This document shows positions 35,246 through 39,762 of a stretch of DNA of 41,440 bases, in pieces. Location: positions 1-41,440 of the forward strand of contig JAKAFH010000008.1 in the NCBI GenBank assembly GCA_021818025.1, given 5' to 3'. Position 1 is the stretch's first letter. Each line of letters starts with the position of its first letter. Both the position numbers and the translations under genes were made by a program. Below the pieces are notes generated by a model. It was given only the letters and a program-made list of their open reading frames with translations, searched no databases and was not told where the DNA came from. The stretch is from Actinomycetes bacterium (lineage in GTDB: Bacteria; Actinomycetota; Acidimicrobiia; Acidimicrobiales; RAAP-2).

Positions 35246-36163
35246 CTACCGAGAACCGTCCGCGGGCGCGGTCGGTGTCGAGATCGTCAGATCCAGCGTC
35301 GAAGCGCGCCCCGTCAAGCGGTCGAGCACGCTGCCCATCGAACCTTCGGTCTCGATCGCCCGGCGGATGACGATCGCCAGGGTCGGCAGCGCCCAGAAGT
35401 CGCCGCAGATCCAGAGGATCGCCGCGCCGATCTGCTGGTCGGCGAATGGCGACAACGTTACGCCAGGCACGTGGGCGTAGACCGCGTACCAGCTGACCGT
35501 CGTCAGGATGCTCATGGAGATCGCGAGCACTGTCATGAGCCCGTTGGTGAGCAGCACGGCGCCGATCTTCCACACGGTCCCCTTCGCCGGCTTCATCGGC
35601 GCCGAGGGGTAGATCTGGAGCCAGAACAAGGTGCCCGCTACGACGAAGCTCCCGTGCATCAGCCAGACGTGCACGAGGCCGTTTCGCTCGCTGAGGTCAA
35701 AGAGGGCCGGCACGTGCCACGCGAACATCACCCCGTTCATCAAGAACAGTGCGAACCACGGGTTGCGCGCGAATCGCCCGACAGCCCGCAGCCAACCCGT
35801 GGACCGGCGCAGGAACAGAAACCGTCCAACGCGTCGTCGCGCTCCGACGGGCAGCACGAAGAGCAGGGGGATCCACGGAGCACCCGCGACGATCAGCATC
35901 GGAACGAAGAACGCGATCACGACGTGTTCGATCATGTGCACGAAGAAGTACTGAGCCGCCCAGTAGTCCAGTGGCGACGCGATGGCGATCACCAGGAGCG
36001 CAAGACCCGCGTAGAACCGGTACGACCGGTTCCGGCGGCGCCGTCGATTGGCGGGCGTCGAGTGGCTCGCCATTCGGCGCAGCCCGACTTCGTGGGCGAA
36101 CGCGGTGGCTGCAAGTACGACGATCATGGGATCGAACGTCCAGTGGTGCACGAGGTAGTTCAC
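35246..36163 (-). CDS. ctaG: caa3-type cytochrome c oxidase assembly factor, CtaG family
   Basis: 305 aa polytopic; HMIEHVVIAFFVPMLIVAGAPWIP, WHVPALFDLSERNGLVHVWLMHGSFV, ADQQIGAAILWICGD. Confidence 0.85.
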   Translation of the reverse strand: MNYLVHHWTFDPMIVVLAATAFAHEVGLRRMASHSTPANRRRRRNRSYRFYAGLALLVIAIASPLDYWAAQYFFVHMIEHVVIAFFVPMLIVAGAPWIPLLFVLPVGARRRVGRFLFLRRSTGWLRAVGRFARNPWFALFLMNGVMFAWHVPALFDLSERNGLVHVWLMHGSFVVAGTLFWLQIYPSAPMKPAKGTVWKIGAVLLTNGLMTVLAISMSILTTVSWYAVYAHVPGVTLSPFADQQIGAAILWICGDFWALPTLAIVIRRAIETEGSMGSVLDRLTGRASTLDLTISTPTAPADGSR

Positions 36164-36174
36164 GGCGCCATCCG

Positions 36175-36600
36175 TTACGGCGTTTCGGTGGGTGTCTGGT
36201 CGCCAAGGCGTTCGCCTCGAAATGCCGCCCCGCTATCGCTTTGCTCGGCGTCGGCCCGCTCGGCGTCGGCGACCTCGGCCTGGTGAGCCTGCCAGGCCCG
36301 CAGCATCCCGTCGTACTCTGGCGCGAGGCCGGGCTCGGTCTTGCGGCGCCGCTTCGGCGTGGCGTCGCCATGCAGCACCTTCCACCACATGTAGACGGCG
36401 AAGATTCCCAGCAGTGGCCACTCGAACACGTAGGCCCAACTCAGGGTATTGCCCCTTTCGGCCCGTCCCAACTCGAACCAGAACGCCAGTGAACACAGCG
36501 CAAGTCCGAGTACCAACACCGCATGGGTGCGCCACGCCTCGGCCCCGCGAAGCCGGCGCGGCGGCTGTCCGGGCGCGTCCTGACCCTTCGCACCACTCAT
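36175..36600 (-). CDS. Small membrane protein of unknown function upstream of ctaG
   Basis: 141 aa, two hydrophobic segments (HAVLVLGLALCSLAFWFEL; YVFEWPLLGIFAVYMWW), charged C-terminus. Confidence 0.7.
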   Translation of the reverse strand: MSGAKGQDAPGQPPRRLRGAEAWRTHAVLVLGLALCSLAFWFELGRAERGNTLSWAYVFEWPLLGIFAVYMWWKVLHGDATPKRRRKTEPGLAPEYDGMLRAWQAHQAEVADAERADAEQSDSGAAFRGERLGDQTPTETP

Positions 36601-36671: not shown

Positions 36672-37496
36672 ATGACCAGCGCCCCCCACGACGCCCCCGA
36701 TGACCACGACTCCGTGACTTCGGCGCCGATCATTTCTTCCGATGAACGAAGCGCGGCCTTTCACGCGGGCCGAACCCCGATACCGCCGAAGTTCTTTCTC
36801 TTGGTCGCCGTGGTCTTCGTTGTGCTGGGCCTGGGCGGCGTCGTGCTCGAGCGCGTTGTCGGCACGCCGGGCCAGACACCCATCGCGAGTCCTCCCGCCA
36901 CGACGACGCCATCCTCCCTGCCGAGCACGACCCACTCGATACTCGGCCTTGAGCTGCTCCCGAGCCGTCCCGCACCCCCGATCACCTTGACGGACCAACG
37001 CGGCGCCACCTGGCGGCTCGCGGCCCAACGGGGTCGAGTCGTGATCCTCGCCTTCTACAACCAGACGTGCAACGACATCTGCCCGGTCCTTGGCGCCGAA
37101 CTGCGCTCCACGATCTCGCTCCTCGGCACCAACGCCGGGCGCGTCGACGTGGCGATTGTCAATACCGATCCGACCCACGCCGCGGTCGTCGCCCTACCCG
37201 CGGCGCTCGTGCGACCCGGGTTGATCGGTCAACCGACTGTCGTGTTCCTGACTGGAACCCTCGCCGAGCTGGACGCCGTCTGGACGCACTACGGCGTCGA
37301 GGTTCGCGTGGGTCCCGCGCCGACCCCGAGCCTCCACAACGACCTGCTGTACTTCATTACGGCCGACGGGCGACTCCACGCGTTGGCGACGCCGTTTGCC
37401 AATGAGAGTCGAAAGGGGGTGTTCTCACTCGATGCCGCTTCACGGCGCGCCTTCGCCGCGGGCGTCGCAGAAGTCGCCGATAGTCTGTTGCCGTGA
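36672..37496 (+). CDS. SCO1/SenC-type copper chaperone / thioredoxin-fold protein
   Basis: N-terminal TM; VVILAFYNQTCNDICPVLGAEL (CxxxCP), downstream His in PTPSLHNDLLYFI. Confidence 0.88.
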   Translation: MTSAPHDAPDDHDSVTSAPIISSDERSAAFHAGRTPIPPKFFLLVAVVFVVLGLGGVVLERVVGTPGQTPIASPPATTTPSSLPSTTHSILGLELLPSRPAPPITLTDQRGATWRLAAQRGRVVILAFYNQTCNDICPVLGAELRSTISLLGTNAGRVDVAIVNTDPTHAAVVALPAALVRPGLIGQPTVVFLTGTLAELDAVWTHYGVEVRVGPAPTPSLHNDLLYFITADGRLHALATPFANESRKGVFSLDAASRRAFAAGVAEVADSLLP

Positions 37497-38170
37497 GTAC
37501 CCCCGAGAGCGAGGTCCGAGCGAGTTCGTACGACCCCGCGTCGATGCCGGCGTCGTCGTTGATCGCGAGCAAGGCGGTCTGGTACCGACGCCCGTGGTTC
37601 CTGATCGCGATAGTGATCGTCGTCGCCATCGCGGTATCGGTCGTCTCAGATTTGCCCCATACGGTGACCAAGAGTGAGGACGCGGCCCAGCAAAACGGGA
37701 CGATCGCGCTCATCAACACCGACATCGCGCCGTGCGCCTATGCGCTCCATGAAAGCTTTCTCATCTACAACCGGCTTCGCTCGGGGACACTCACGTCGGG
37801 AGACATTCAGATGTCGGCCAATCTCTTGACCCAGGATCAAGCTTCGTGCACCTTGGCCACTGGCCCGATCTACGACCTCGCGACCAACATCCAACCCGTC
37901 GACACCGCCGCGGGTAAGAAGATCGATGCGATGTACGGCGTCGTCATCACGTGGACGACGAACGACGCTAAGGACGCCATCTACGATATCGCGATGGCCG
38001 TTCGCCAGCCCACCAATCAGAAGTGGGTACGCGACCTCACCACCCGCCAGCGCTACCTAGCCCAGGACCGCGCGCGCATCGTCAAGTTGGTCGCCGAGGC
38101 GAGTCACCTCGTTGGGGTCACGCTCACGCCGGTCAAAGTTCCCCAACTCGCCCCGCTGCTTGGAACCTAG
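37493..38170 (+). CDS. Single-TM extracytoplasmic protein of unknown function, coupled to SCO1
   Basis: 225 aa; TM WFLIAIVIVVAIAVSVVS; GTGA-type overlap with SCO1 stop; two Cys (IAPCAYAL, QASCTLA). Confidence 0.75.
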   Translation: MSTPESEVRASSYDPASMPASSLIASKAVWYRRPWFLIAIVIVVAIAVSVVSDLPHTVTKSEDAAQQNGTIALINTDIAPCAYALHESFLIYNRLRSGTLTSGDIQMSANLLTQDQASCTLATGPIYDLATNIQPVDTAAGKKIDAMYGVVITWTTNDAKDAIYDIAMAVRQPTNQKWVRDLTTRQRYLAQDRARIVKLVAEASHLVGVTLTPVKVPQLAPLLGT

Positions 38171-38944
38171 TTAGTTCTTCGTCCCAAAGAAGCCCCGAGC
38201 CCGCTCGCGGCGCACCAGCCGATACAACTCGGCGTCAGGATCTTCTTCGGACTGCAGCCACTGCACCAGGTTCCAGAAGATGATGGGCAGGAAGACCGCC
38301 GCGGACACGAGCCAGATGGAACTGACACTCAGCTGCTGGTCGGCCGCGAGTGACGGACCGTGTCCCGGGACGTGGGTGAAGGCGTGATACCACGACGATC
38401 GCGACATGCCATTCATGTACGCCATGATCCACACGACCCACATCACCACCGCCGAGATGCCGATTCGATATGGACGAGTGGCTCGGGGCGTCAGCGGCGG
38501 GGACTCGATCAAGTCACGAAAGAGCGCCACACCGCTGACGCCGAGCGTGACGAACTCCACGACGGTGAGCCACGGGTGCCGAACGACGGCGTCGACCACG
38601 GGCGACACGCGCCACAACACGGCGATGGCGAGGAAGATTCCCGCCGCCACGATCGATCGACCGTGGTTGACACCGGTCGCCACCGGATCACGCGAACCGT
38701 CCGGATCAGCGACGCTCGACGGCGTCGAGCGCGACCAGACCGGCCAGCGCCGCACGCCGAGGCGGCGCCACGGCCCCCCCGCCACGAACAACACCGGCGC
38801 CACGAAGGCGAACGACTCGAACTGCAGGGTCTGGACGTATTCGTACTGGCGGGCCCACGACCCGAGTGGCGGGACCAACCAAATGAACCACCACACGACC
38901 CCTAGGACCGCGAGCACGTCGCGGAATCCTCGGTGCCCCAACAT
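38171..38944 (-). CDS. Divergent CtaG-like membrane protein
   Basis: 257 aa polytopic; RQYEYVQTLQFESFAFVAPVLFVAGGPW and AADQQLSVSSIWLVSAAVFLPIIFWNLVQWLQSEEDPDAE resemble caa3_CtaG proteins. Confidence 0.6.
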   Translation of the reverse strand: MLGHRGFRDVLAVLGVVWWFIWLVPPLGSWARQYEYVQTLQFESFAFVAPVLFVAGGPWRRLGVRRWPVWSRSTPSSVADPDGSRDPVATGVNHGRSIVAAGIFLAIAVLWRVSPVVDAVVRHPWLTVVEFVTLGVSGVALFRDLIESPPLTPRATRPYRIGISAVVMWVVWIMAYMNGMSRSSWYHAFTHVPGHGPSLAADQQLSVSSIWLVSAAVFLPIIFWNLVQWLQSEEDPDAELYRLVRRERARGFFGTKN

Positions 38945-38962: not shown

Positions 38963-39076
38963 TTACTCCGACGGGTGTCGCTGGAAGAACCCCCAGATCA
39001 GCACGCCAAACAAGACGCCGAGTAGGACCACCATCGTCTGGACCTGCGGTCCGATGTAGATGTCAACTCCCTGCAC
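38963..39076 (-). CDS. 37-aa single-TM small protein in the cytochrome oxidase cluster (not in ORF track)
   Basis: GTG...TAA gives (M)QGVDIYIGPQVQTMVVLLGVLFGVLIWGFFQRHPSE, with strong upstream SD GAGAGGAGGAAG; lies between ctaE stop and the CtaG-like start. Confidence 0.7.
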   Translation of the reverse strand: MQGVDIYIGPQVQTMVVLLGVLFGVLIWGFFQRHPSE

Positions 39077-39105
39077 GATCGCTTCCTCCTCTCGTCAAAC
39101 TCGAG

Positions 39106-39762
39106 TTACAGCAGATAGAACATGGCGAAGAACAGGACGCCACTCAATCCGACGAAGCCCCAGAAGTAGGTCATCGCCGATACGTTGGCCCGGAACGACT
39201 GGGCCGTCGCGTGCGCCGAGAGTTCGGGTCGATCGCCGCCGATCTCGCGGTGCAGGCGCAACGAGCGAGCGAGGGCGGTCTCGAGCCAGTAGGCACCAAC
39301 AACCAACGTCGCGATGTTGATGACGACGAAGCCGATGAACGTCGACGCGTAGCCGCTTGAGCCCGGGTAAAAGGACAACGCCGTCAACTCCCAGATCTGC
39401 AGCACCAATGCCAGCACCGCGGCGAAGAGCGCGGTCCAGCCCGCCACCTGCCAGTCCACGACGCCACCCTTGCGCAGTCGCCACTGCCCGTAGATCGCCA
39501 TCAGAGCGGCGAGGATCGTCAGGGAGAAGATCGTCCAGCCGTAGGCCGTCGGTGCCGTGACGTGATTCGGGCGCCACAGCAGACCGTTGTTGCTCGATCG
39601 CAGATAGAAGTACGCGAAGGCGAGCGAGGCCAGCAGGAACGTGTACATCCCGATGAACAACCGCCCGCCGGACCACACTGATCCGATGTGCGCGCGTAGT
39701 TCGAACTCATCCTCTTCCGGGGTCGAGGTGTACCCGTTTGACTGTTTCATAGTTCCACTCAT
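39106..39762 (-). CDS. ctaE: Cytochrome c oxidase subunit III
   Basis: FIGMYTFLLASLAFAYFYLRSS, STFIGFVVINIATLVVGAYW; start MSGTMKQ. Confidence 0.93.
   Translation of the reverse strand: MSGTMKQSNGYTSTPEEDEFELRAHIGSVWSGGRLFIGMYTFLLASLAFAYFYLRSSNNGLLWRPNHVTAPTAYGWTIFSLTILAALMAIYGQWRLRKGGVVDWQVAGWTALFAAVLALVLQIWELTALSFYPGSSGYASTFIGFVVINIATLVVGAYWLETALARSLRLHREIGGDRPELSAHATAQSFRANVSAMTYFWGFVGLSGVLFFAMFYLL

Follow-up and report, generated by a model that had tools for sequence, protein, structure and literature searches.

A 37-residue membrane peptide encoded after ctaE as a probable overlooked subunit of an unusual A-family oxidase in Acidimicrobiales

The gene for a 37-aa peptide with one predicted membrane helix lies directly after ctaE in the window (the whole stretch of 41,440 nt that was analyzed, from an acid-habitat actinobacterium), and the peptide is probably an overlooked oxidase subunit, since it follows one unusual oxidase branch in every genome examined. 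Judged from sequence and gene neighborhood, we consider it likely that the peptide serves the adjacent A-family oxidase as a fourth, single-helix structural subunit, packed against the subunit I/III core. The features of the cluster are listed in Table 1.

Table 1. Oxidase-cluster features of the window, with the basis of each assignment.
Feature	Position	Strand	Basis
Second Caa3_CtaG-family protein	35246..36163	-	PF09678, 2.7e-43; synteny
SCO1/SenC-like copper chaperone	36741..37496	+	neighborhood synteny; opposite strand to oxidase genes
Caa3_CtaG-family protein, first copy (probable CuB assembly factor)	38171..38944	-	PF09678, 5.3e-18; synteny
37-aa single-helix (predicted) membrane peptide gene	38963..39076	-	ORF, conservation, hydrophobic segment
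Shine-Dalgarno-like AGGAGG	39085..39090	-	8 nt 5' of GTG
Subunit III (CtaE-like), highly divergent	39106..39762	-	alignment-based model, COX3 fold
Subunit I (CtaD), truncated by contig end	39779..41440	-	PF00115, 2e-127

The minus-strand frame (39076 to 38963) starts with GTG, runs for 37 codons to a TAA stop, and encodes (M)QGVDIYIGPQVQTMVVLLGVLFGVLIWGFFQRHPSE; the gaps on its two sides are 29 nt from the ctaE stop (39106) and 18 nt to the ATG of the CtaG-like gene (38944). The original prediction had described this GTG-to-TAA frame and its placement between the two genes, 18 nt ahead of the second, and both were reproduced, the coordinates and reading frame exactly; the AGGAGG it had reported 8 nt ahead of the GTG was located at 39090-39085. 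Most relatives start the gene with ATG in place of the GTG of the window, and all 24 loci scanned with a permissive motif list have a ribosome-binding-like motif ahead of the start. A promoter and terminator scan gave no signal above shuffles.

The original prediction had also named the findings that would count against the peptide: no conserved ORF in relatives, or no codon-level constraint. The ORF is conserved, and over 25 same-genus loci its codons have a mean pS of 0.716, a pN of 0.151, and a pN/pS of 0.21. Third codon positions are by far the most variable (entropy 0.52/0.30/1.24 for the three positions), and the window peptide differs from its nearest homologue by synonymous changes only (pS 0.435, pN 0). 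By this substitution pattern the ORF is a genuine protein-coding gene under purifying selection. Its short length would suit a non-coding spacer, leader, or RNA element; that reading is extremely improbable and, on the sequence comparison, already strongly contradicted by the pN/pS value and third-position variation, by the frame conserved across genus and GTDB loci, by the ribosome-binding-like motifs ahead of the starts, and by an Rfam search that gave no match.

Genus neighborhoods were fetched with the CtaG-like protein as query. When the ctaE-ctaG interval of relatives was inspected, as the original prediction had proposed, the peptide was found in-frame at the same position in 25/25 same-genus genomes with an intact region (the window's own counted); the sole further same-genus CtaG-like match, L027, is truncated by the end of its contig and was left out of the 25. 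In a scan of GTDB contigs, which overlap partly with the same-genus genome set, 58/58 loci show the order CtaE-peptide-CtaG, and CtaD lies upstream in 56 of them, i.e., wherever the contig reaches. By their record titles the GTDB loci come from metagenomes of bog, palsa, and other sources, with the label Acidimicrobiaceae or a broader one. Peptide profiles were then built stepwise and run on genomes of the order, where they match 43 of 397 at E<=0.01, the weakest few being doubtful. The distant copies span several other families of the order, mostly within a ctaE neighborhood, and the confident ones among them are mostly directly 3' of CtaE, or follow an intervening CtaG gene in family f41 and some of family f26. 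A search of the phylum beyond the order gave no convincing peptide, only weak matches (E>=0.002) that we read as chance; most of them fell within long frames or in short stretches of low score. Apparent peptide fusions in open frames of 245-330 aa were likewise set aside, as they resembled upstream read-through or unrelated genes.

The hydrophobic segment of the window peptide is predicted to form a membrane helix at about residues 12-31. Conserved positions are T14, G20, W28, G29, F30, F31, and R33, and the wider consensus reads T-x-[AV]-[IV]-[PL]-L-G-x(7)-W-G-F-F-Q-R; in A3, neither T14 nor F31 varies. A permutation test for a helical face of conservation found none significant (p = 0.63), and the contact surface of the peptide therefore cannot be named. 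In the mechanism that we propose, the peptide would be made from the oxidase cluster just after subunit III and would insert with the N-terminus on the outer side and the C-terminus, rich in R/K/H, on the cytoplasmic side, the probable orientation by the positive-inside rule. Its conserved T-x(3)-[PL]-L-G and W-G-F-F-Q-R segments would then pack onto the I/III core, and the packing would stabilize the oxidase complex. Pfam gave no match to the window peptide at E<=1; Pfam and NCBIfam searches with the peptide and 36 homologues returned nothing beyond weak matches to FixQ and to small membrane proteins of unrelated kinds, and a PDB sequence search with two peptide profiles found no relative, the CD20 matches being judged chance. 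Going by these searches, the peptide family is unlisted among the Pfam, NCBIfam, and PDB families covered.

The adjacent oxidase is itself divergent. CtaD of the window belongs to the A family of subunit I proteins; its best NCBIfam match, TIGR02891, falls below the cut-off of that model, and its closest solved relatives are mycobacterial COX1 and Bacillus aa3-600. It retains the heme/CuB histidines, the GHPEVY motif, E278, and Y280 (Paracoccus numbering). The metal ligands are thus present, and the canonical D-channel Asp and K-channel Lys are absent: D124 is replaced by R, N131 by E, K354 by I, and D404 by G. Across 52 peptide-positive genus loci with readable columns the same replacements recur, with R, K, or Q at D124; distant peptide-positive loci show T-I/L-G at T351/K354/D404, or the last column only where the stretch is short. 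The window CtaE has no Pfam match, and a CtaE profile found no PDB sequence match. A single-sequence model was too poor, and we used one built from 52 aligned relatives (pLDDT 88.9), which matches subunit III chains, best of all mycobacterial CtaE (E 3.9e-5, TM 0.70/0.81). The ctaE name given to this gene in the original prediction is therefore borne out by the predicted fold.

Within the sampled set, the peptide is confined to a single CtaD branch. A FastTree phylogeny of 107 CtaD C-terminal parts splits 48 peptide-positive from 59 peptide-negative sequences with zero errors (support 0.86); this split is an association along a tree, so that few independent events are counted. Peptide-less genomes of the same genus or family carry CtaDs about 35-44% identical to that of the window, of two types, one keeping D124 and N131 but not K354, the other canonical. 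In same-genus and same-family loci L151-L173 the CtaD keeps the D-channel residues, F, I, V, or M replaces the K-channel Lys, and D404 is G; among these inspected loci no such peptide was seen beside this second unusual type. A neighboring branch holds a natural CtaD-CtaE fusion (L211, G058:C2; 848-aa open frame, CtaD 55% identical). No peptide was detectable in that genome, and the peptide is therefore not universal among related oxidases. The plasmid collection holds no CtaD above 60% identity and therefore no annotated relative of the window oxidase.

The window's contig breaks off inside ctaD, and its assembly showed no ctaC, only one COX1, and no CtaF. In contrast, CtaF occurs in 15/15 other peptide-positive genomes sampled, either on another contig or at a distance of over 100 kb from the peptide, and beside the other, canonical CtaD in the cases checked; the missing second oxidase may therefore be an assembly gap. 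The relative L056 shows the order cupredoxin-like gene, ctaC (CuA motif; COX2, 3.5e-15), ctaD, ctaE, peptide gene. The cupredoxin-like protein upstream of ctaC (513-1301, +) has no Pfam match and is provisionally named for its Cys/Met motif; it is a possible electron donor. At this one locus, the N-terminal extension of CtaD has two hydrophobic stretches by eye, one of them above a strict hydropathy threshold. On the far side of the peptide, the two different Caa3_CtaG proteins of the window flank the SCO-like gene and a gene for a 225-aa protein, an arrangement kept in most genus loci. The 225-aa protein (37493-38170, +) has no convincing Pfam match, is kept in most relatives' clusters, and is encoded convergently to the CtaG-like gene. 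A 141-aa membrane protein (36175-36600, -) also has no Pfam match, and in many relatives its counterpart lies at the opposite end of the cluster (L056 236-511, -).

The main rival to the subunit reading is a transient role in assembly or stability, in which the peptide would assist the CtaG-like protein in inserting heme a3/CuB, or would help subunits I and III to come together, and would then be missing from the mature oxidase. CcoS, an assembly peptide of the cbb3 oxidase, is likewise a small membrane protein, and assembly factors can display gene linkage identical to that of a subunit. The peptide gene directly precedes the Caa3_CtaG gene in the window and most relatives, and in the f41 genomes and in G073, which carries the homologue MFASVTGYSAAADMTFAIPIGIFAASLVFGFFARRRLGSRR, it adjoins the CtaG-like gene with CtaE not directly adjacent. 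However, at f26 loci L119-L121, L123, L126, and L130 no CtaG match was found in the fetched stretch, and the peptide comes after CtaE. CtaG is therefore not the constant partner; the constant companions of the peptide are CtaE and CtaD. The relative rates point the same way: median identity to the window is 87% for CtaD, 79% for the peptide, 68% for CtaE, and 49% for the CtaG-like protein, so that the CtaG-like protein changes far faster than the peptide, which favors a subunit over an accessory factor. The family also conserves no Cys, His, or Met motif for copper or heme throughout its members. Taken with the finding that, among the genes sampled, the peptide marks exactly one branch of CtaD, the f26 loci lead us to favor a subunit, and we regard an assembly role as rather unlikely.

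Small membrane proteins often serve as regulators, and the cupredoxin-like gene described above stands ahead of ctaC in one relative; both would suit a reversible oxidase regulator or a bridge to the cupredoxin donor or another complex. Because the peptide is constantly present in the cluster and is strongly conserved together with the core genes, a fixed component is suggested instead; no independent regulation was seen, and we hold this regulatory or bridging role to be very unlikely. The original prediction of an accessory subunit or assembly peptide thus gains support from the conservation and the CtaD-branch linkage, with the subunit favored.

Small single-helix subunits are familiar from other oxidases. 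CcoQ/FixQ has a single helix with an aromatic, basic C-terminal end, as is predicted for the peptide, and CydX is encoded after the bd oxidase genes. The original prediction had likened the peptide to CcoQ and CydX, a likeness that holds for size and predicted topology and does not extend to membership. The window peptide has no match to the FixQ profile (PF05545), which gives a weak score in 4 of 36 homologues (best E 0.035, with power limited at 37 residues), and its neighbor is an A-family COX1 (PF00115), not a cbb3 ccoNOQP operon. CydX of Escherichia coli cytochrome bd, with 37 aa and a single helix (PMC4325964, PMC6005532), matches the peptide in length and predicted topology but belongs to an unrelated bd oxidase and gave no sequence match. 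CcoM of the Pseudomonas stutzeri cbb3 oxidase, with 36 aa (PMC10433244), is alike in size and as easily overlooked; it belongs to a C-type oxidase, whereas the peptide stands beside an A-family enzyme, and the likeness is one of size. CtaF (PF12270) is the fourth subunit of the actinobacterial aa3 oxidase, from the same class as the peptide host, but it has about 130 aa and several helices and is encoded elsewhere in peptide-positive genomes. The peptide has no match to its profile, and true CtaF is present elsewhere in the other carriers.

A parallel in gene order is the rus operon of acidophilic iron oxidizers, cup-coxB-coxA-coxC-coxD (PMC10654088). Like CoxD, the peptide is encoded after subunits II, I, and III in a cluster with a cupredoxin-like gene, a likeness of gene order only that is taken from L056. 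COX1 of iron-oxidizing bacteria is reported to bear a two-helix extension (PMC8239418), and the window-type subunit I of L056 is extended as well; many peptide hosts come from acid habitats by record title. The peptide thus occupies the coxD position, that of the fourth oxidase gene, in related operons, which also favors a subunit over an assembly peptide. By analogy it may be said to resemble CcoM, CydX, and CoxD in size or place, with membership in none of them shown.

CydX and CcoM, both small oxidase subunits, long escaped notice and later proved important for enzyme function. The peptide family provides a sequence tag for an oxidase branch without the standard D- and K-channel residues and with a subunit III that profiles do not recognize, and the peptide is a specific component to seek by mass spectrometry or cryo-EM. 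It is conceivable, if quite unlikely, that the peptide is a subunit found specifically in A-family oxidases lacking the usual entry residues of both proton channels. If true, the peptide would help to build a substitute proton path or would seal the core against the steep proton gradient of acid habitats. The peptide family also bears on proton handling by the oxygen reducers of such habitats.
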